DNA of 42,955 nt from Xanthomonas arboricola (GTDB lineage: Bacteria; Pseudomonadota; Gammaproteobacteria; Xanthomonadales; Xanthomonadaceae): NCBI RefSeq assembly GCF_003353015.1, contig NZ_QREM01000007.1:542605-585559 (forward strand). The letters are read 5' to 3'. The notes below the pieces were generated by a model. That model was not told the origin of the DNA and ran no database searches. It saw only the letters and a program-made list of their open reading frames with translations. Below, one piece after another: positions 15,629-25,375 of the stretch. The position numbers and the translations under genes were made by a program. Position 1 is the stretch's first letter. The number at the start of each line of letters is the position of its first letter.

Positions 15629-15981
15629 CAGCCTGCCTCCTTGTCGGGGGTTGCCGCGCTACGACCGAACGGCGTGGAAATCACCAGAAAACGCGCTTCG
15701 CTCCCGGACAGGTTGTGCATCTGGTGGGTGGAACCGGGCGGCACATGCAGGCCCTGCCCCGCGCGCAGCACATGCTGCTCGCCATCCAGCTGCAGCATCA
15801 CCTCGCCGGCCAGCACATAGAAGAAATGCCGTGCGCGGCTATGCCGATGGCGCAGTTCGGCAGCGCCCGGCGGCATGCGTTCTTCCAGCACGCTCAGGTT
15901 GGGATCGCGCAGCAGGTGCCAGCCATCGCTGGCCTCGCCCCACGGATAATGTTCTGCGCTGTCGGTACTGATCACGGCCAT
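15628..15981 (-). CDS. Small single-domain cupin protein
   Basis: A 117-residue protein consisting of one cupin barrel. The first cupin motif is visible as RHRHSRARHFFYVLAGEVML (about residues 45-64) and the second as LRAGQGLHVPPGSTHQM (about 73-89), with His residues suited to metal binding. No substrate can be assigned. The start at 15981 overlaps the argH stop as TGATG, and its stop overlaps the yciI-like start in the same way, so argH-cupin-yciI are tightly coupled. Confidence 0.8.
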   Translation of the reverse strand: MAVISTDSAEHYPWGEASDGWHLLRDPNLSVLEERMPPGAAELRHRHSRARHFFYVLAGEVMLQLDGEQHVLRAGQGLHVPPGSTHQMHNLSGSEARFLVISTPFGRSAATPDKEAG

Positions 15982-17276
15982 CAGAGCAGCGCCTCCCAGC
16001 GGGCACGCAGCACGTCCAGCTGCAGGTCCGCGGCGGCGCCTGGCGAGACGCGCGCGGCCAGGCTGCCTTCCGGCGTGCGGCCCTGCCCGGCGGTGTCGGC
16101 CGATTCCGCCGCGGCCTTGTAGGCCTCGCGGAACGGCACACCGGCAACGGCCGCTTCCACCGCCACATCGGTGGCGTACATGCCCGAATCGATCGCCGCA
16201 TGCAGCTTGTCCGGGCGCCATTCCAGGTTGGCCAGCAGGGCCGGCAGCAGTTCCAGCGCCGCCAGGCCGCGCCCGAAGCCATGCACGATCGCCCCCTTGC
16301 TGCTCTGCAGATCACGGTGATAGCCCGACGGCAGCGACAGCAGCTGTTCGATCTCGGTGCGCGCGGCGGCCACGCTGGCGTGGGTGGCGCGCATCAGCTC
16401 GATCACGTCGGGGTTGCGCTTGTTCGGCATGATCGAGCTGCCGGTGGTGTACTGCGCCGGCAGCGCGACGAAGGCGAACTCGCCGCTGGTGAACAACGAC
16501 AGGTCCCAGGCAATCCGGCGCAGGTCCAGCGTTGCGCTGCCGAGGGCCTCGAGCGCAGCCAGTTCGTACTTGCCACGCGAGAGCTGCGCATAGACCGGCG
16601 AGACCTGCAGGCGTGCAAAGCCCAGCTCGGCGGTGGTATGCGCACGGTCCAGCGGCAGGTTGACACCGTAACCGGCCGCGGTACCGAGCGGATTGCTGTC
16701 CACCAGGCGCAGGGTGTCGGTCGCACGCACCGCATTGTCGATAAAGGCCTCGGCCCAGCCCGCCCACCACATGCCGGCCGAAGACACCACCGCGCGCTGG
16801 ATATGCGTGTAGCCCGGCACCGGCAACGCGGCTTCTGCCTGCGCGCGATCCAGCGCCACCTTGGCGATCTCCGCGCCGAGCTCGGCCACGCGCTGCAGCT
16901 TGTCCTTCAACCACAGGCGGGTGGCGACCAGGATCTGGTCGTTACGGCTGCGCCCGGTGTGGATCTTGCGGCCGGCATCGCCCAGCCGCTCGGTCAGGCG
17001 CGCTTCGATCGCCGAATGGCAGTCCTCGTAGCGCTCGTCCAGCACGAACGCGCCACTGCGGAAATCGGCCGCCAGCAGGTCGAGCTGCTCGCTCAGCCCG
17101 CCCAGCTCCTGCAGCGACAGGATGCCGATGTGCTGCAGCCCCTGCGCATGCGCCTTGCTGGCAGCGATGTCGTACAGGAAGAACTCACGGTCCAGGATGA
17201 CGTCGTCGCCGGCCAGGAAGCTCTGGATCTTGGCGTCCACCGCCACGCCGGGTTTTTGCCACAACAGATTGGTCAT
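15981..17276 (-). CDS. argH: Argininosuccinate lyase
   Basis: A 431-residue enzyme of the fumarase/aspartase superfamily that splits argininosuccinate to arginine and fumarate, the last step of arginine synthesis. Motifs include [11 protein letters not shown] (104-114), YTHIQRA with catalytic His 158, and the signature [11 protein letters not shown] (279-289). The start [14 protein letters not shown] at 17276 is chosen because the longer frame runs back through the intergenic hairpin and argC. The N-terminal region is slightly shorter than in the 460-residue E. coli type, as is usual in xanthomonads. Confidence 0.95.
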
Positions 17277-17311
17277 CGGAAAGCGTCTCGAGTAAGTCGT
17301 CCAGTTAAACC

Positions 17312-17331
17312 CCCGCACATGGAGGTGCGGG
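17312..17331 (-). other. Hairpin between argC and argH
   Basis: CCCGCAC at 17312-17318 pairs with GTGCGGG at 17325-17331 around a 6-nt loop. It lies just after the argC stop and 36 bp before the argH ATG, read leftward. No U-run follows directly, so it is more likely an RNA-processing or stability element than a full terminator. Confidence 0.5.
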
Positions 17332-17353
17332 CTCTTGCGAGGGACCTGCATCA

Positions 17354-18304
17354 TCAGCCAATCGCAGTCAATTCGTCCCAGCCCAATGCCAGGTTGAGAT
17401 TCTGCATCGCCTGCGTCGCCGCGCCCTTGAGCAGGTTGTCCAGCGTGGCCACCACCACCACCCGCTTGTTGCCCGGCGCCAGCGTCACGCCGCCGATCTG
17501 CACGCCATGCCGGCCGGCGATGCGGCTGACCCACGGCGCTTCATCGACGATCTCGATCAACGGCTCGTCGGCGTAACGCTGCGTGTAGCGCGCCTGGACC
17601 TGCTCGCGCGTCAGCGCTTGCTGCAGCCACAGGTTGACGGTCATGGTGATGCCACGGAAATGCGGCGCCACATGCGGCATGAACTCCACCGGCACGCCGA
17701 GCTGCGCAGAGACTTCGCGCTCGTGCATGTGGTTGGTCAGCGCATACGGCATCAGGTTATCGGCCAGCAACTCGGGGTTGTTCTTGTCCGACGGCGTGGT
17801 GCCCGCGCCGGAATACCCGGACACGCCGAAGCACTGCGGCGGGCCGGCCAGTTGGTCGAGCAACGGCGCGATCGTCAGCTGCATCGCGGTGGCATAGCAA
17901 CCCGGGTTGCTGATGCGCTTCTGCCCGGCGTAGTTGCCGCGCGTGAGCTCCGGCAACCCGTAATACCAGGCCGGATCGAAGCGGTAATCGGCCGACAGGT
18001 CGATCAACAGCGTCTGTGGCCTGGCCGCATCGATCGCCGCGACGAAGGGCTCGGCCTTGCCGTTGGGCAATGCCAGGATCACCACGTCGGCGGCCTTGGC
18101 GGCCACCGCCTCGGCATCCAGGCTCTCGTAGCGCAACTCGCCACGATAGGCAGCGTTGTGGTCGGCCACCGGCTGCCCGGCCAGTTCGCGCGAGGACACG
18201 AACACCAGCTGCAGATGCGGGTGTGCCACCACCAGCTTGATCAATTCCGATCCGGTATGCCCGCGGGCACCGACGATGCCGATGGTGGTTGCTTGAACAG
18301 TCAT
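17354..18304 (-). CDS. argC: N-acetyl-gamma-glutamyl-phosphate reductase
   Basis: A 316-residue NADPH-dependent reductase that converts N-acetylglutamyl phosphate to N-acetylglutamate semialdehyde. The Rossmann start is [19 protein letters not shown]; the catalytic Cys lies in [13 protein letters not shown] (about 137-149) and the conserved His region in [15 protein letters not shown]. The start at 18304 overlaps the stop of the upstream acetyltransferase as ATGA. The gene belongs to the short (type 2-like) ArgC group. Confidence 0.94.
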
Positions 18305-18912
18305 GCGTTTGCTTCCAGGCGGAACTGCAGGTGGCGTTTGACCCCGGCCCATTCCGTATCGATGATGGAGAACACCACGGTATCGCGCGGCGTGCCGTCG
18401 GGGTGACGGGCATGGTTACGCAGCACCCCGTCCTGCTTTGCACCGAGCCGCGCAATCGCCGCGCGCGAGGTGTGATTGAACCAGCTGGTCTCGAACACCA
18501 CGCTCAGGCAGCCCAGCGTTTCGAAGGCGTGTTGCAGCAGCATCCGCTTGGTGTCGGTATTGACGCCGCTGCGCTGCACGCGCGGCGCGTACCAGGTGTA
18601 GCCGATCGACAGCTTGGGTACTGTCGCATCCAGCCCGTAATAGCGTGTGCAGCCGACGATCTCGCCAGCCGCGTCACGCACCACGTAAGGCAGCGCCAGA
18701 CCGTCGGCCTGCGCCACCAACGCGGCGCCCACGTAGTCGTCCACCTGCGCTGGCGCCGGCACGCCGGTGTACCACAGCCGCGACAGCGCCCCGTCGCCTA
18801 ATGCGGCACGCAGACCATCGGCATGCGCAGCCTGCAACGGGTCCAGCGTGGCGTGTTGCCCGCGCAGCGTGGGCAGCTCGCGCCAGTGCGATGGCAATGC
18901 GACGGGCGCCAT
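18301..18912 (-). CDS. GNAT-family N-acetyltransferase
   Basis: A 203-residue protein of the RimJ/RimL-like GNAT group: [19 protein letters not shown] near the start, [21 protein letters not shown] in the middle and a core stretch [33 protein letters not shown] with the acetyl-CoA-binding turn. The substrate is unknown. It is encoded between the fused kinase/synthase (5-bp gap) and argC (ATGA overlap), so it is co-translated with arginine genes although the pathway already has its acetyltransferase. A regulatory or protein-modifying acetylation is as likely as a metabolic one. Confidence 0.8.
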
Positions 18913-18917
18913 CGGAC

Positions 18918-20261
18918 TCAGCCCAGCAGCGTCGGCTGGCGCGTCGCGCAATGCGCCACGCAGTGCTGGATCTGCTCGAAGCTCTCCAGCCCGTACCAGA
19001 ACACCTTCCACTTCTCCTGCTTGATGCAGCCGTCGGACTCGGCGTAGTAGAAGATGTTGACCTGGTTGTTGTGCCGCGAGCGCCAGAACAGTTGCGGGGT
19101 TTCCTCGCGCATCACGTTCCACACCGCGCGGCCCAGGCCTTCGCCCTGCGCATCGTCGAGCACGGCGAACTTGTCCAGGTAGATCAGCGCGCTTGCGCCC
19201 AGCATGCCTTCATCGGTGAGGATCACCGCGGCGCGATAGTTCTCGCTGACATAGGCACGCAACAACCTGGTGTTGCTGAAGTACTCGGGCACCAACGTGC
19301 GGCCGAAGCTGGATTCGATCAGCGTCTTGAGCCGCGGCAGGTCCAGTTCGTCCCACGAGGTCGCGCGCAACACGCGCTCGCCGCGCCGCACCAGCGTGCC
19401 CGAGCCCTTGTGGGTGAACAGCTCCTTGGCCAGGTCCGCCGGCCGGGTGATCGATACCGACGATTCCAGCGGCAGGCGATCGAGCAGGTCCTTGATCTGT
19501 TCGATCTTGACCCGCATGCCGCCATTGATCCACGGCTGCTCCATCAGGTGATCGTATTCGGTGGACAGGTTGATCGAATCGATCACCTTGCCATCGGCAT
19601 CCAGCAGACCGCCGGTGCCGGTGAGGAAGATGATCTTGTACGGCTGCAGCTCCTGCACCAGTTCGTTGGCGGCAAAATCCGCGTTGATGTTGAGGATCTG
19701 CCCGCTCGGCGTCTCGCCCAGGCTGGTGATCACCGGGATCGAGCCGGCCTGCAGGCTGGCTTCGATCGGTGCCAGGTTCACCGCCTTGACCTCGCCGACC
19801 AGGCCGTAGGTGTCGCGGTCCAGATACTGCGCCTCGAACACGCCGCCGGTGATCGAGGTCGCACGCGCACCATTTTGCTGCAACGCCTCGACCAGCTTGA
19901 GGTTGGAGGCCTGGAACACCTTGCGCACGATCGCCAGCGCTTCGGGCGAGGTTACCCGCAGGCCGTTGACGGTGCGCTTGTCGATACCCGCCGCCGACAG
20001 TTCGGCATCCAGCTGCGGGCCGGCGCCATGCAGCACGATCGGGGTCAGCCCCACTTCCTGCAGGAACGACAGCGAGGAGGTCAGCGCGTCCAGGTCGTCG
20101 CGCAGCACCGCGCCGCCCACCTTGACCACCGCAAAGCGTTTGGCATCCAGCTGCGAGAAACGCTTGAGATACTGGCTGATTTCCTTGGCGCTGGCCATGC
20201 TCGAAAGCAGGCGCACGATGGTCTGGCGGGTCTGTTTGTGGGGCTGTGCGGAGAGGGACAT
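18918..20261 (-). CDS. argB: Bifunctional N-acetylglutamate kinase/synthase
   Basis: A 447-residue fusion. Residues about 40-290 are an amino acid kinase domain ([57 protein letters not shown]), and about 300-447 a GNAT domain ([22 protein letters not shown] ... [22 protein letters not shown]). Established: in Xanthomonas and relatives such fusions make N-acetylglutamate and phosphorylate it, giving the first two steps of arginine synthesis, with arginine control; this architecture resembles vertebrate NAGS. The argA activity is therefore expected here and no separate argA is needed. The gene sits between argE' (74-bp gap) and the GNAT gene. Confidence 0.93.
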
Positions 20262-20335: not shown

Positions 20336-21436
20336 TCAGTGTGCGCCGTTGATGATGCGATGGACCGACCCGGCGTAACGCTGCAACTGCGCAAGCGTCA
20401 CGAACTCGTCGGCGGTGTGCGCCTGGGCGATATCGCCCGGTCCGTACACCAGTGCGGTATAGCCACCGGCCGAGAACAGCGAGGCCTCGGTCCAGAAATC
20501 CACTGCATTGCCGATCGGCAGGTCCAGCGCATCGGCGACATCGCGTGCGGCCAGGCGGCGTTCTTCGGCGCGCGCGATGTCACCCGACGGCAGGCTCGGC
20601 CCGCGAAAGGTTTCTTCGAACTGCGCTGCGGCCGGCTCGGCGAACCCGGCAAACGTGGCCAGCAAGCCATCCACGTCCATCGACGGCAGCGGACGAAAGC
20701 CGAAACGCAGCTCGGCCGCCGGCGCGATCATGTTGGCCTTGATGCCGCCCTCGACCCGACCGATGTTGAAACGCAGGCCGGTCAGGCCGCCGAAGCGCGC
20801 ATGCGCCAGCGACTCGACATGCTCCAGCGCCTTGCCGCCCCAGCGCATCGCCTGGTGGAGCGCACTGGCGGAGGGATCCTGCCTGCCCGACGCATGCCCG
20901 GCACGCCCGGCAAAGCGCATCAGCACCGAGCTGATCCCGCGATGCGCCAGCACCGCCTCGCTCATGGTCGGCTCGGCCACCAGCACCGCCTCATACGGCA
21001 CGCCCCGCGCCAGGAAGGCGGCGATACAGCGCGGGTCGTTGGCTTCCTCGTCGGAGGAAAACAGGAAGGCCGCATCGCCCTGCCCGGCATTGGCCGCCGC
21101 CGCCAGCGCCGCGGCCGCACCCTTGATGTCGCAGACGCCCAGGCCGATCACGCGATCGTCGGTACGCCGCATCACGTGCGGATGGGCACTCCAGTGCGGC
21201 GAATCCGGCACCGTGTCCAGATGCACGTTGAACAGGTACCTGGGCGCACCGCGCACCGCATACAGGCTCACCGCACCGGCACCGTGGTCGATCACCTCGA
21301 CCTGGAACCCGGGCAGCTGCGCACACAGGTAATCGAAGATGCCGCCCTCGGCAGCGATCGCCCGCGGCGGATTGCGGGTGTCGAAGGACACCAGCTTTTC
21401 CAGGTGTATGAGGGTGGCGGCGAGGAGATCGGTCAT
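20336..21436 (-). CDS. argE: N-acetylcitrulline deacetylase (ArgE-type M20 peptidase)
   Basis: A 366-residue zinc-dependent M20/ArgE-family deacetylase. Metal and catalytic residues are visible: YLFNVHLDTVPDSPHW (His 72, Asp 74), LGVCDIKGAAAAL (Asp 103) and FLFSSDEEANDP (Glu 130/131). Established knowledge: in Xanthomonas the homologue acts on N-acetylcitrulline because carbamoylation precedes deacetylation, in agreement with the AOTCase encoded in this operon. Generic annotation as acetylornithine deacetylase would misplace the step. It is separated from argG by a repeat-rich 282-bp gap. Confidence 0.9.
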   Translation of the reverse strand: MTDLLAATLIHLEKLVSFDTRNPPRAIAAEGGIFDYLCAQLPGFQVEVIDHGAGAVSLYAVRGAPRYLFNVHLDTVPDSPHWSAHPHVMRRTDDRVIGLGVCDIKGAAAALAAAANAGQGDAAFLFSSDEEANDPRCIAAFLARGVPYEAVLVAEPTMSEAVLAHRGISSVLMRFAGRAGHASGRQDPSASALHQAMRWGGKALEHVESLAHARFGGLTGLRFNIGRVEGGIKANMIAPAAELRFGFRPLPSMDVDGLLATFAGFAEPAAAQFEETFRGPSLPSGDIARAEERRLAARDVADALDLPIGNAVDFWTEASLFSAGGYTALVYGPGDIAQAHTADEFVTLAQLQRYAGSVHRIINGAH

Positions 21437-21718: not shown

Positions 21719-22912
21719 TCAGCGATTCACCTGGGCGTACAGCGTCGAGCTCATCCCGAACAGCTTGATGAAGCCTTCCGCCTCCTCCACGCCCCAGTCG
21801 GCCGACTGCGCATAGGTCGCGCCCTTGGTGTTGAGCAGATGCGGCGAGCGCACCGCCACCGCATCGACGCGGCCACCGCGGGTTTCCAGCGTGACCTCGC
21901 CGTTGACCTTGGCCTGCGACGACTTCAGGAACGCCTCGATATCGGTCTTGAGCGGGTCGTGGTAGAAGCCTTCGTACACCAGCTCCACCCACTTGCGCGC
22001 CACATCCGGCTTGAAGCGGTTCTGCTGCTTGGTCAGCACCGCATCTTCCAGCGCGCGGTGCGCGGTCAGCAGCGAGATCAGGCCCGGCGCTTCGAACACG
22101 ATGCGGCCCTTCAACCCGATCACGGTGTCGCCGGTATAGACGCCACGGCCCACGCCGTAGGGCGCAAACAGCTTGTTGAGCTGGGCCAGGATCTGCTCGC
22201 CCGGCAGCGCCTTGCCGTTGAGTTCAACGGCCTCGCCTTCGACGAACGTCAGGGTGACCGTCAGCGGCTCGGCCGGCCACTCGCTGCGCGGCGCGCACCA
22301 GCCGCGCGCGCCCTCGCCCGGCGCTTCCCAACGGTCGATCTCACCGCCGGACATGGTCAGCCCGAGCAGGTTCTCGTTGATGGTGTAGGCCTGCTGCTTG
22401 GCACGCACGCCGAAACCGCGCTCTTCCAGGTACTTCTGCTCGTAGGCGCGGGTCTGGGTGTGCTCTTTCTGGATCTCGCGGATCGGCGCCACGATCTGGT
22501 AATCGCCCAGTGCCTTCACTGCCAGATCGAAGCGCACCTGGTCGTTGCCCATGCCGGTGCAGCCGTGGGCGATGCTGCGCGTGCCCAGTTCCCCGGCGCG
22601 CTTGAGCGCGGCATCGACGATCAGGTAACGGTCGGACACCAGTAACGGATACTGGCCCTGATAGCCCTCGCCGGCCCACACGAACGGCTTGACGAAGCCC
22701 TGCCAGATGGCCGGACCGCCATCGACGGTGACATGGCTGGCCGCGCCCAGCTCGGCGGCGCGCTTCTCGATGAAGTCGCGTTCCTCCGCATCCACGCCGC
22801 CGGTATCGGCAAACACGGTGTGCACCGCATAGCCCTGCGCCTGCAGATACGGAATGCAGAAGCTGGTGTCGAGGCCGCCGGAGAAGGCGAGAACGATATC
22901 TTTGCTGCTCAT
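21719..22912 (-). CDS. argG: Argininosuccinate synthase
   Basis: A 397-residue ATP-dependent enzyme joining citrulline and aspartate to argininosuccinate. The N-terminal PP-loop is clear: [20 protein letters not shown]. Further conserved parts include [16 protein letters not shown], the substrate-binding region near [20 protein letters not shown], and [20 protein letters not shown]. Length is normal. It lies between the OsmC-like gene (36-bp gap) and argE' and acts on the citrulline released by the acetylcitrulline deacetylase. Confidence 0.95.
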
Positions 22913-22948: not shown

Positions 22949-23419
22949 CTACTCGACAACCACGACGCGCGGCTCGCAGCGCACCGGGAAGTTGACCGAA
23001 CGGGCGATGAAACAGGCCGCGTGCGCGGCATGGTGCAGCGCCTGCGCGGCCGCCGGATCACCGGCGGAAATCGTGACGACCGGATGCAGCACCACCTCGA
23101 CGAACTGGCCGCCGCCGGCGTCGGTCGACATCGTGCCGCCGGCCTCGTCGACGTAGCCACGCACCACCACGCCGGCCTCGGCGGCCAGGTGCAGGTACCA
23201 CAACATGTGACAGGCCGAGAGCGACGCCACCAGCAGGTCCTCGGGATTGTGCCGCGATGCGTCGCCGCGGAACGCGGGGTCGGCCGAACCGGCCAGCGTC
23301 GGCTTGCCGGCGATGGCGACCTCGTGCTCGCGCCCGTAGCTGCGGTAGTCGCGCGTGCCCTGGCCGCGGTCGCCGGTCCAGGTGACCTGCGCGGCGTAAT
23401 GGTGGAGCTGGCCGCTCAT
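22949..23419 (-). CDS. OsmC/Ohr-family protein
   Basis: A 156-residue protein of the OsmC superfamily, with the conserved core NPEDLLVASLSACHMLWYLHLAAEAGV (about residues 59-85) and a Cys near 71 that is the likely peroxidatic residue; the second family Cys is probably in AACFIARSVNFPV near 139. OsmC proteins detoxify organic hydroperoxides with a thiol mechanism. Its start overlaps the argF' stop as ATGA, so it is co-translated with the arginine operon. Why a peroxidase-like gene lies second in the operon is not known. Confidence 0.82.
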   Translation of the reverse strand: MSGQLHHYAAQVTWTGDRGQGTRDYRSYGREHEVAIAGKPTLAGSADPAFRGDASRHNPEDLLVASLSACHMLWYLHLAAEAGVVVRGYVDEAGGTMSTDAGGGQFVEVVLHPVVTISAGDPAAAQALHHAAHAACFIARSVNFPVRCEPRVVVVE

Positions 23420-24435
23420 GCCCGGCTCTGGCCCGCCAGCGCAGCCATGATCGCCTTCTGCACATGCAGGCGGTTCTCGGCCTCGTCGATGGCGATGCAG
23501 TTGGGCGAATCCATCACCGCGTCGGTGGCCTTGACGTTGCGACGCAGCGGCAGGCAGTGCGAGAACACGCCGTTGTTGGTCAGCGCCATCTTGCGTTCGT
23601 CGACGATGAAGTGCTGGTACTGGTCGCGGATCGGTTTTTCCGGCTCCCAGTTGCCGAAGAACGGCAGTGCGCCCCAGCTCTTGGCATACACCACGTCGGC
23701 GCCGGCGTAGGCGCTGTCGATGTCGTGGCTGACCTGCAGCGAGCCGCCGCTTTCGGCCACGTTCTGCGCCGCCCAGTCCATGTAGCGCTCGTCCAGGATG
23801 TAGTCCGGCGTCGGGCACAGCAGGGTCACGTCCATGCCTAAGCGGGTGGCGATGGTCAGCGCGGAATTGGCCACCGCGGTGTTCAACGGCTTGGGGTGAT
23901 AGGTCCAGGTCAGCACGTACTTCTTGCCGCGCAGGTCCTGGGTGCCGAAGTGTTCCTGCAAGGCCAGCGCATGCGCCAGCTCCTGGCACGGGTGGGTGAT
24001 CGTCTCCATGTTGATCACCGGTACCGGCGAATACTTGGCGAAGCTCCTGAGCACCTGGTCCTCGCGGTCCTTGGACCAGTCGACGAACTTCGGGAACGCG
24101 CGCACGCCGATCAGGTCGACATAGCGGCCCAGCACGCGCGCCACTTCGGCGATGTGTTCTTCGGTGTCGCCATCCATCACCGTGCCCAGGTTGAACTCGA
24201 TCGGCCAGGCATCCTTGCCCGGCTGCAGCACCACCGCATGCCCGCCCAGCTGGAAAGCGCCCAGCTCGAAGCTGGTCCGCGTGCGCATGGACGGGTTGAA
24301 GAACACCAGCGCGATCGACTTGCCCTTCAGCTCGCTTCCCAGCTTGTTGCGTTTGAACAACGCAGCCTGGGTCAACAGCGCGTCCAGTTCGGCGCGGCTC
24401 CAGTCCTGGGTGTTCAAGAAGTGCTTCAGTGACAT
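23416..24435 (-). CDS. argF': N-acetylornithine carbamoyltransferase
   Basis: A 339-residue transcarbamylase using N-acetylornithine, not ornithine, to make N-acetylcitrulline. The carbamoyl phosphate motif is SMRTRTS (49-55) instead of the STRTR of OTCases; HPCQE is at 148-152 and HCLPLRRNVK at 293-302. Lys 302 (carboxylated in the X. campestris enzyme) and Glu 92 (the residue that controls acetyl versus succinyl selectivity) fall at exactly the published positions. It is the first structural gene of the arginine cluster. AAGGA lies upstream of ATG 24435, and a leader ORF with terminator stands before it. Confidence 0.95.
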   Translation of the reverse strand: MSLKHFLNTQDWSRAELDALLTQAALFKRNKLGSELKGKSIALVFFNPSMRTRTSFELGAFQLGGHAVVLQPGKDAWPIEFNLGTVMDGDTEEHIAEVARVLGRYVDLIGVRAFPKFVDWSKDREDQVLRSFAKYSPVPVINMETITHPCQELAHALALQEHFGTQDLRGKKYVLTWTYHPKPLNTAVANSALTIATRLGMDVTLLCPTPDYILDERYMDWAAQNVAESGGSLQVSHDIDSAYAGADVVYAKSWGALPFFGNWEPEKPIRDQYQHFIVDERKMALTNNGVFSHCLPLRRNVKATDAVMDSPNCIAIDEAENRLHVQKAIMAALAGQSRA

Positions 24436-24542
24436 CGATCGATCCTTGTGCTGCGTGCTTCTGCTGCGTGGTCCGCCAGGAGCGACGGGGTGCGCGACAT
24501 GCGCGTTTCTTGCGGTTGAAACTTTTGTGACGTCAAAACGAA

Positions 24543-24568
24543 AAAACCCAGCCTGAGGGCTGGGTTTT
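24543..24568 (-). terminator. Intrinsic terminator in the argF' leader
   Basis: Read leftward, AAAACCCAGCC (24568-24558) and GGCTGGGTTTT (24553-24543) form an 11-bp stem around a 4-nt loop, followed by further T residues (24542-24541), a textbook Rho-independent terminator. It lies 28 bp after the stop of the leader ORF and 107 bp before the argF' ATG. Its position ahead of the operon suggests conditional termination rather than only the end of the upstream gene. Confidence 0.88.
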
Positions 24569-24604
24569 CAACAACGGAACAGCCAAACGCTCCGGTTACC
24601 CAGC
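24546..24604 (-). promoter_or_regulatory. Candidate arginine-operon attenuator
   Basis: Three blocks occur in transcript order: GCTGGGT (24604-24598), ACCCAGC (24565-24559) and GCTGGGT (24552-24546). The middle block can pair with either flank but not both. Pairing with the last gives the intrinsic terminator; pairing with the first is an antiterminator. The first block overlaps the Gly codon and stop of the leader peptide, so a ribosome at the stop would mask it, while one stalled at the Arg codons 19 or more nt upstream would leave it free. This is the geometry of trp-type attenuation. It is an inference from sequence and has not been tested. Confidence 0.55.
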
Positions 24605-24697
24605 GAAAATGTGGGATTCCGGTCGGCGGGCACGCGAGGTCATGCCGGAGGCCATCCGGGCGGCGCTGGTGTCGTGCTGAAAGGCGTTTGCGTGCAT
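24596..24697 (-). CDS. Candidate 33-aa arginine leader peptide
   Basis: A 33-codon ORF between the upstream gene and the terminator. It begins MHANAFQHD, contains Arg at positions 14, 22, 24 and 25 (TSRARRPESH, residues 20-29) using four different Arg codons (CGG, CGT, CGC, CGA), and ends at TAA 28 bp before the terminator. A GAGGA sequence lies 10 nt before the ATG. Clustered Arg codons just ahead of antiterminator and terminator stems argue for a regulatory leader peptide sensing charged tRNA-Arg. The frame also continues upstream, so the start is inferred. It is too short for homology-based support by eye. Confidence 0.5.
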   Translation of the reverse strand: MHANAFQHDTSAARMASGMTSRARRPESHIFAG

Positions 24698-24747
24698 AGG
24701 GCGCGAATCCTCGCATGCATGCGGGCATGGCGCAACCGCTGCGCAAC

Positions 24748-25266
24748 TCAGCGCGGCGGCGCGACGATGGCGTCGGGGATATAGGGGGTGACCGACACGC
24801 GGATGCGCAGCCGGTTGCCCGGGTCTTCCGGCAGCCGCGAGCGGTACTTGGTGCCCTTGTAGACGTAGTCCACGTCGAAGGCGATCGGCCGCCGGAACTC
24901 GCGCGGCACTTCCACCACCCGGCAGTTGCGCCGCGTGCTGGTCGGCGGCACCGCCATCGGCACCGAGGCCGGCTCGGGGCGCCGCGAGAACATCTCCTTG
25001 ACCGAATCCACCATGCGGTTGATGCGGCCCTCGTCCTCGACCGGCGCCACTGCCACCGATGCGACCTGCTCGGCCTCGCATTGTTCCTCCATGCGGGTGG
25101 CGCGCAAGGTCTGGTAGACCGGCTCGACGTTGAGCACCTGCGCGTAATCCAGCTTCACGTTCTCGATCACCACCACCCTGTTCTTGGGATCGGTTTCTGC
25201 CGCATGCGCTGACGGTGCCTGCCAGGCGAACACACACAGCAGCAGGAAGAACGGGGAAGGTCGCAT
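24748..25266 (-). CDS. Secreted protein of unknown function, related to glycine-zipper outer-membrane proteins
   Basis: A 172-residue protein with a signal peptide (MRPSPFFLLLCVFAWQAPSAHAAE). The N-terminal part VIENVKLDYAQVLNVEPVYQTLRATR and the C-terminal part YVYKGTKYRSRLPEDPGNRLRIRVSVTPYIPD resemble the ends of SlyB/glycine-zipper 2TM-type envelope proteins, but the glycine zipper that normally lies between them is absent and replaced by a charged, Pro-rich linker (about residues 65-110). Function unknown, probably in the periplasm. It is divergent from cysS and lies directly upstream of the arginine leader. Confidence 0.65.
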   Translation of the reverse strand: MRPSPFFLLLCVFAWQAPSAHAAETDPKNRVVVIENVKLDYAQVLNVEPVYQTLRATRMEEQCEAEQVASVAVAPVEDEGRINRMVDSVKEMFSRRPEPASVPMAVPPTSTRRNCRVVEVPREFRRPIAFDVDYVYKGTKYRSRLPEDPGNRLRIRVSVTPYIPDAIVAPPR

Positions 25267-25375
25267 CAGTACCAGGGGGGCGGAGCGAAGCAATACGTAA
25301 GTGTATGGAGCTTGCGATCCCTTGGGCTGAACGCAGCCCATCCGGTTACCGGCATCGGTGCGGGCATGCGACCGG

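Follow-up and report, generated by a model that had tools for sequence, protein, structure and literature searches.

A candidate ribosome-mediated arginine attenuator ahead of argF' in Xanthomonas arboricola and related families

The minus-strand leader at ∼24699-24541 of the window (the whole 42,955-nucleotide stretch of Xanthomonas arboricola DNA analysed here), which lies ahead of argF'-argG-argE-argB-argC-argH, is very probably a ribosome-mediated, arginine-sensing transcription attenuator, with argF' and probably the arginine genes behind it under its control. This reading is drawn from features of the sequence itself, namely a short open reading frame (ORF) and its arginine codons, an intrinsic terminator, a mutually exclusive pairing, and the spacing, conservation, and covariation of these elements. 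The original prediction had described a candidate arginine leader with a layout of the trp/his type, and that description is supported by the conservation of the leader, its spacing, its covariation, and the arginine clusters found in further families. The elements of the leader in the window are the following:

24730..24735, minus strand: promoter-like -35 element, TTGCGC, read from the sequence, with a putative promoter function
24707..24712, minus strand: promoter-like -10 element, GAGGAT, a poor match to the usual -10, also of putative function
24596..24697, minus strand: leader ORF of 33 codons, peptide MHANAFQHDTSAARMASGMTSRARRPESHIFAG, with ATG at 24697 and TAA at 24598-24596
24623..24643, minus strand: MTSRARR, codons 19-25, kept in 156/157 loci, with Arg25 encoded by CGA at 24625-24623
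24612..24622, minus strand: block 1, CCGGAATCCCA, the proposed protector strand, with a pairing to block 2 that is weak relative to shuffles
24598..24604, minus strand: block 2, GCTGGGT, the putative 5' strand of the antiterminator, recognized by its pairing with block 3 and its fixed spacing from Arg25
24558..24568, minus strand: block 3, AAAACCCAGCC, the 5' arm of the terminator and putative 3' strand of the antiterminator, recognized by pairing, folding, and terminator scan
24541..24553, minus strand: block 4 and T run, GGCTGGGTTTTTT, part of a terminator present in 155/156 MTSRARR loci

The predicted details of the ORF all held when the coordinates were checked, including its four arginine codons (positions 14, 22, 24, and 25, the last three close together) and a TAA that overlaps the final T of GCTGGGT. 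This heptamer is complementary to the 5' arm of the intrinsic terminator and is also contained in its 3' arm (24568-24541, minus strand; 5' arm AAAACCCAGCC, loop CTCA, 3' arm GGCTGGGT, T run to 24541), which bears out the mutually exclusive pairing that had been proposed, and the duplex exceeds dinucleotide shuffles, as detailed below. The argF' start codon, at 24435, lies ∼160 nt further downstream. In a promoter scan, the -35 and -10 elements were 17 nt apart (L001), and TTGCGC was the commonest -35 pick (55/156 loci), although these counts are indicative only because implausible starts were picked in some loci (e.g., L182 and L186). The leader peptide matched no Pfam or NCBIfam family (Pfam up to E 10), and the only Rfam matches over the gathering cut-off in the window were "Xanthomonadaceae sRNA Xoo5" and one tRNA, with no T-box or riboswitch family among them.

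The genes behind the leader make arginine, the amino acid of its codon cluster, and were identified as follows:

23416..24435, minus strand: argF', N-acetylornithine carbamoyltransferase, the first controlled gene in the proposal (NF003384, 653.8 bits, cut-off 288)
21719..22912, minus strand: argG, argininosuccinate synthase, presumably co-transcribed (NF003385, 827.7 bits, cut-off 603)
20336..21436, minus strand: argE, acetylornithine deacetylase (NF006439, 701.8 bits, cut-off 345)
18918..20261, minus strand: argB, acetylglutamate kinase (NF003386, 956.8 bits, cut-off 417)
17354..18352, minus strand: argC, N-acetyl-gamma-glutamyl-phosphate reductase (TIGR01850, 334.3 bits, cut-off 233.6)
15981..17534, minus strand: argH, argininosuccinate lyase (TIGR00838, 275.3 bits, just under the cut-off of 279.5)

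Between argF' and argG lies a frame (22949-23400, minus strand) that presumably resembles an OsmC-type protein, and an overlapping frame (23058-23465, minus strand) had no NCBIfam match. Upstream of the leader, the gene at 24748-25272 (minus strand) had a weak NCBIfam match, under the cut-off, and similar coding sequence is located directly upstream of the leader in many relatives.

Conservation was assessed at 157 argF' loci from four families (f1, which is the window's own, f12, f2, and f3), consisting of the best 80 among the matches listed for the window's ArgF' and 77 added loci, of which 16 were from f1 genomes without an Rfam match and nine (L191-L199) were picked by their Xoo5 match. 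An upstream ORF with SRARRP was found at 80/80 loci of the first scan and MTSRARR at 77/77 of the added loci; the leader ORF and the arginine codons foreseen for relatives were present at all 157 loci, with MTSRARR in 156 and ITSRARR(P) in L015, which falls outside the 156-locus counts given here, for which the filter was MTSRARR. Measured from M19 to argF', 154 of the 156 leaders were distinct. L051 and L169, with equal leaders, look like one genome. The argF' locus of L044, leader included, is Stenotrophomonas-like, yet its contig was deposited under the name Bacillus subtilis SK7B5 and is probably contamination or a mislabelled assembly. On a tree of the 156 argF' genes, in which identity to the L001 gene falls as low as 73%, the third codon position underwent 40 changes at T20, 30 at R22, 27 at R24, and 21 at A23, but only four at S21 and three at R25; the unchanged first and second positions of the core follow from the MTSRARR filter, and the independent figure is 156/157. 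The codon for Ser21 is TCG in 152/156 loci and may be constrained too. Ala at -6 and -3 is invariant in the 156 loci. Downstream of the core, the residue after R25 is Pro in 142/156 loci and otherwise Leu, Arg, Cys, Asn, or Thr, the later codons drift, and the stop codon occurs at a drifting position 2 to 10 codons after R25.

The exact MTSRARRP pattern was found in 5/369 genomes of the class, all from this order and all directly before argF', and the reversed pattern gave one match; relatives of ArgF' (E up to 1e-80) were found in 3/274 genomes, all of the window's family; arginine leaders may still precede genes other than argF' elsewhere. The Thr_leader family (RF00506) produced only weak matches (20/60 genomes with E up to 0.001 and 0/60 over the cut-off) and therefore gave no yardstick for ordinary leader-peptide conservation within the same family.

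Beyond the four families, 42 usable argF' loci were sampled from families f4 to f11; L233, which had too little sequence upstream, was left out. Six f11 loci had no terminator by script. In the remaining seven families, an arginine-codon cluster and a terminator were found together at 32/36 loci, of which 31 were identified by script and one, the script-negative L384, was counted as positive after reading of the sequence, its ORF and terminator being located further upstream; neither leader nor terminator was found at L226 (the sole f5 locus), L232, L392, and L394 (f9), though argF' is present, which counts against the attenuator reading. At least three Arg within six codons occurred in 31/31 loci vs. 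34% of shuffles, and at least four in 22/31 vs. 6%, with Arg the most enriched residue against 100 dinucleotide shuffles (z 13.7, followed by Asn at 4.3 and Val at 3.5). The peptides are unlike MTSRARR, for example NPRRRRVLQSTAG, VVRRRPRPRIYAGR, VVVRRNRRRINMPG, and LRRRRRLSQRRAG. From the last Arg of the cluster to the best block 2, the distance was 14 to 25 nt in 26/31 loci, the outliers being L376, L395 (with a doubtful terminator score), L231, L396, and L399, and in the last two block 2 was absent or out of place. These two f8 leaders, ending RRRRPLRQMELFG and RRRRPIRQMELFG, share the tail MELFG and have no good block 2 near the stop, and their layout may differ. What the further families have in common with the core loci is the switch and its arginine codons, while the peptide differs, which is what one would expect of an arginine sensor. 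The DNA-binding domain of ArgR (PF01316) was found in 8/101 genomes of the order, all f11, and in 9/14 controls; the best f11 match to ArgF' has 38-43% identity and is probably an ordinary ornithine carbamoyltransferase, and the ArgR contrast is therefore confounded.

The choice of codons in the leader is as distinctive as the residues. R25 is CGA in 153/156 loci (151/154 distinct leaders), whereas CGA makes up 0.8% of the 1291 Arg codons in argF' at the 80 first-scan loci, and only CGU, CGC, and CGA are used at R22, R24, and R25 in all 156 loci. In the 32 clusters of the further families, the Arg codons were CGC (59), CGA (41), CGT (24), AGA (1), AGG (1), and CGG (0), vs. 23% CGG and 8% CGA in the argF' genes of those loci. 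The window's own genome has tRNA-Arg anticodons ACG (four copies), CCG, TCT, and CCT, and none of its 54 tRNA matches (ARAGORN) has a TCG anticodon. By standard decoding rules, the inosine form of the ACG tRNA decodes CGU, CGC, and CGA, with CGA decoded least well. The preference for CGA at R25 points to tRNA supply. Attenuator theory links the choice of leader codons to the isoacceptor that responds most strongly to supply (PMC1183508).

The core is nearly frozen, beyond what a codon-counting leader would require, and this suggests that the nascent chain also matters. Taken to its end, this would make the leader an arrest peptide, in which the chain ...GMTSRAR stalls the ribosome at Arg25 by touching the exit tunnel, so that block 2 becomes free and the operon is switched on through the same RNA structures, the cue being N-acetylornithine, ornithine, or a fixed pause and not uncharged tRNA. 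An MTSRARR unchanged in 156/157 loci despite varying third positions, together with the equally invariant Ala at -6 and -3, is what such a device would show, and as a lead, with R22-A23-R24 in the P site and R25 incoming, Arg and Ala would occupy the two positions that precede the P-site residue, as in the RAPP arrest peptides ApdA, ApdP, and SecM described in PMC10951233. The motif here, however, is RARR(P) and not RAPP or RAGP, those peptides serve protein localization and not arginine genes, six other families hold Arg clusters without the MTSRARR peptide, the CGA preference points to tRNA supply, and the sign would be wrong for a stall triggered by excess arginine; we consider an arrest peptide unlikely. 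The same strong conservation of the core could reflect a peptide that functions in trans, with the attenuator-like pairing secondary, and the text of PMC7298713 offers a precedent in peTrpL; however, there is drift in the C-terminal third of the peptide and in where it stops, the peptide matches no Pfam or NCBIfam family, and Arg clusters are all that the six other families share, which leaves this explanation barely credible.

The position of block 2 ties the pairing to the arginine codons, as expected of an attenuator that senses arginine. By script, the terminator was found in 155/156 core MTSRARR loci, with L221 as the exception, and at these 155 loci the best duplex between the 5' arm of the terminator and the stretch after Arg25 had a mean score of 18.3 vs. 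12.4 (sd 2.5) for dinucleotide shuffles, with scores of at least 14 in 149/155 loci vs. 31% of shuffles. Block 2 had been predicted to start about 19 nt downstream of Arg25, and it does so in the window (19 nt past the last base of Arg25), with a start at +20/+21 from the first base of R25 in 144/155 loci vs. 5% of shuffles; like the other shuffle tests, this one ignores the relatedness of the loci. Block 2 keeps a constant distance from the arginine codon and not from the stop. A ribosome with R25 in its A site should have its front edge near +13 by footprint, and would therefore cover block 1 and leave block 2 free, while one at the usual stop codons would cover block 2; L217, with its stop at +6, fits this geometry poorly, and block 2 is weak or misplaced in seven core loci (L153, L154, L165, L199, L220, L223, and L224).

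Pairing between blocks 2 and 3 is close to complete and, at one position, covaries. All seven 2:3 pairs are present in 131 of the 155 loci, six in 18, and five in 6. The third pair is T-A in 101 loci, C-G in 47, T-G in 4, C-A in 2, and G-G in 1, and over the 310 branches of the tree it changed 11 times on the block 2 side and 10 times on the block 3 side; in five cases both sides changed on the same branch, each time keeping the pair (hypergeometric p 4.6e-6); no same-branch change was found at the other 2:3 pairs. Together with GCTGGGC/GCCCAGC in L230 and CCAGGT/ACCTGG in L231, these changes agree with the covarying 2:3 stem that had been anticipated. With folding from +14 through block 3, the minimum-energy structure contained the 2:3 helix at 152/155 loci. 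In the window this fold has -20.7 kcal/mol, and once block 4 is added the terminator wins (-26.8 kcal/mol), so timing must decide between them. The CCCA/TGGG protector stem is a candidate, weaker than had been proposed: the 1:2 stem forms in 143/155 loci, somewhat above the 76% obtained with a shuffled block 1. With block 3 present, 2:3 wins in 137/155 loci and 1:2 in 12/155, so that an untranslated leader might read through.

In the proposed mechanism, transcription would begin ∼2 nt before the AUG, and translation of the leader peptide would start on a nearly leaderless RNA. With charged Arg-tRNA(ICG) in short supply, the ribosome would wait at Arg24/Arg25 (CGA), possibly helped to pause at Arg25 by the frozen peptide core, and would cover block 1 with block 2 left free; block 2 would then pair with block 3, no terminator would form, and argF' would be transcribed. 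When arginine is plentiful, the ribosome would reach the stop codon and cover block 2, blocks 3 and 4 would pair, and transcription would end. The sign of the switch is set by this geometry, and the kind of arrest that excess arginine causes in the fungal arginine attenuator peptide would therefore act in the wrong direction here.

The leader overlaps a catalogued RNA:

24576..24699, minus strand: Rfam RF02242, sRNA Xoo5, 144.2 bits, model positions 1-124 of 124, with its first base taken as the transcription start

The score is compared with a gathering cut-off of 50 bits, and the leader region thus belongs to the family, which Rfam types as Gene; sRNA. The 5' end of Xoo5 was mapped by RACE in X. 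oryzae (PMC3039613), and this end, from one species and carried over by alignment, lies 2 nt before the leader AUG, so that almost no RNA would precede the ORF. The same source gives a size of 124 nt and Northern bands of ∼130 and ∼100 nt, of which the longer was visible in early growth alone and the shorter persisted afterwards (PMC3039613). Under the attenuator reading, Xoo5 would be the remnant of termination or processing. Against this reading, its cloned 3' end stops 8 nt short of the terminator stem, and the Northern bands are smaller than the terminated transcript of ∼159 nt that would be expected, for which processing is our guess. If real, this 3' end would imply cleavage of the leader RNA in the stretch that separates blocks 2 and 3 (24699-24576, minus strand). 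The main text of PMC3039613, in which no target of Xoo5 was found, does not contain the terms arginine, ornithine, or argF, and the paper lists no sequence similar to Xoo5 in Xylella, which counts against the attenuator reading. In the order, Xoo5 matches with E up to 0.001 were found in 162/397 genomes and matches over the cut-off in 84/397, with 0/14 in controls. A second match in one genome (G131; 31.9 bits, under the cut-off) was located in DNA that by eye was coding-like and without argF', and was taken as chance; G203 and G279 have second Xoo5 matches too.

Xoo5 could alternatively be a trans-acting sRNA that regulates other mRNAs, to which the ORF and argF' would be incidental. Cloning and Northern blots revealed it as a discrete RNA (PMC3039613), it carries the Rfam type Gene; sRNA, and rnTrpL is a precedent of a leader RNA with a role in trans (PMC7298713). 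Against this stand the codon-wise conservation of the ORF, its constant place before argF', the spacing of block 2 tied to Arg25, and the hfq mutant, for which three sRNAs are named as affected in the text of PMC3039613 and Xoo5 is not among them; a role solely in trans is very improbable, and one that accompanies the role in cis is conceivable.

Among known systems, an arginine attenuator most resembles the trp and his attenuators, with which the leader has in common a short ORF carrying end-product codons, the series of four blocks (block 1 as a candidate protector), a terminator opposed to an antiterminator, biosynthetic genes behind, and a codon choice that fits the theory of supply sensitivity (PMC1183508), but from which it differs in being specific for arginine and in having a nearly frozen peptide core and one nearly fixed rare codon. 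Like the trpL/rnTrpL attenuator RNA of S. meliloti, which begins at the ATG of its ORF and accumulates as an sRNA, it starts close to the coding sequence; that system, however, concerns tryptophan, encodes a 14-residue peptide, and has demonstrated functions in trans (PMC7298713). The orf34 (SpeFL) leader of speF in Salmonella is likewise an upstream ORF with consecutive arginine codons that senses arginine and in which a pause without arginine favours expression (PMC6386406), but it acts by Rho-dependent termination and RNase G on a polyamine gene, is induced by ornithine, and belongs to Pfam PF10940 (PMC6386406), a family that the leader here did not match up to E 10. The carA gene of P. aeruginosa, which serves the arginine and pyrimidine pathways, also follows a leader peptide, but its attenuation is by pyrimidines, and P. 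syringae is described as having no such start codon (PMC4997734). A literature search at the level of titles and abstract openings, mostly outside subscription papers, found no arginine attenuator of a biosynthetic operon, and term searches of the main texts of a survey of premature terminators (PMC2965389) and an sRNA screen in Xcc (PMC7694677) found no mention of arginine or argF.

As a tentative extension, the arginine attenuator may have turned into a nascent-chain device, in which the frozen GMTSRAR slows peptide bond formation and the rare CGA, read by the inosine tRNA, serves to amplify the sensing of arginine or an acetylated pathway intermediate. If so, attenuators that sense tRNA charging and arrest peptides would form a single evolutionary series, of which the sister families would still carry the plain arginine-run leaders. 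Proteobacterial arginine genes are usually said to be under DNA-binding repressors such as ArgR. An arginine attenuator would explain the control of arginine genes in members of the order without ArgR, and would give the orphan RNA family Xoo5 a role. Leaders that range naturally from plain arginine runs to a nearly frozen peptide would also make the step from codon-sensing to nascent-chain-sensing testable.
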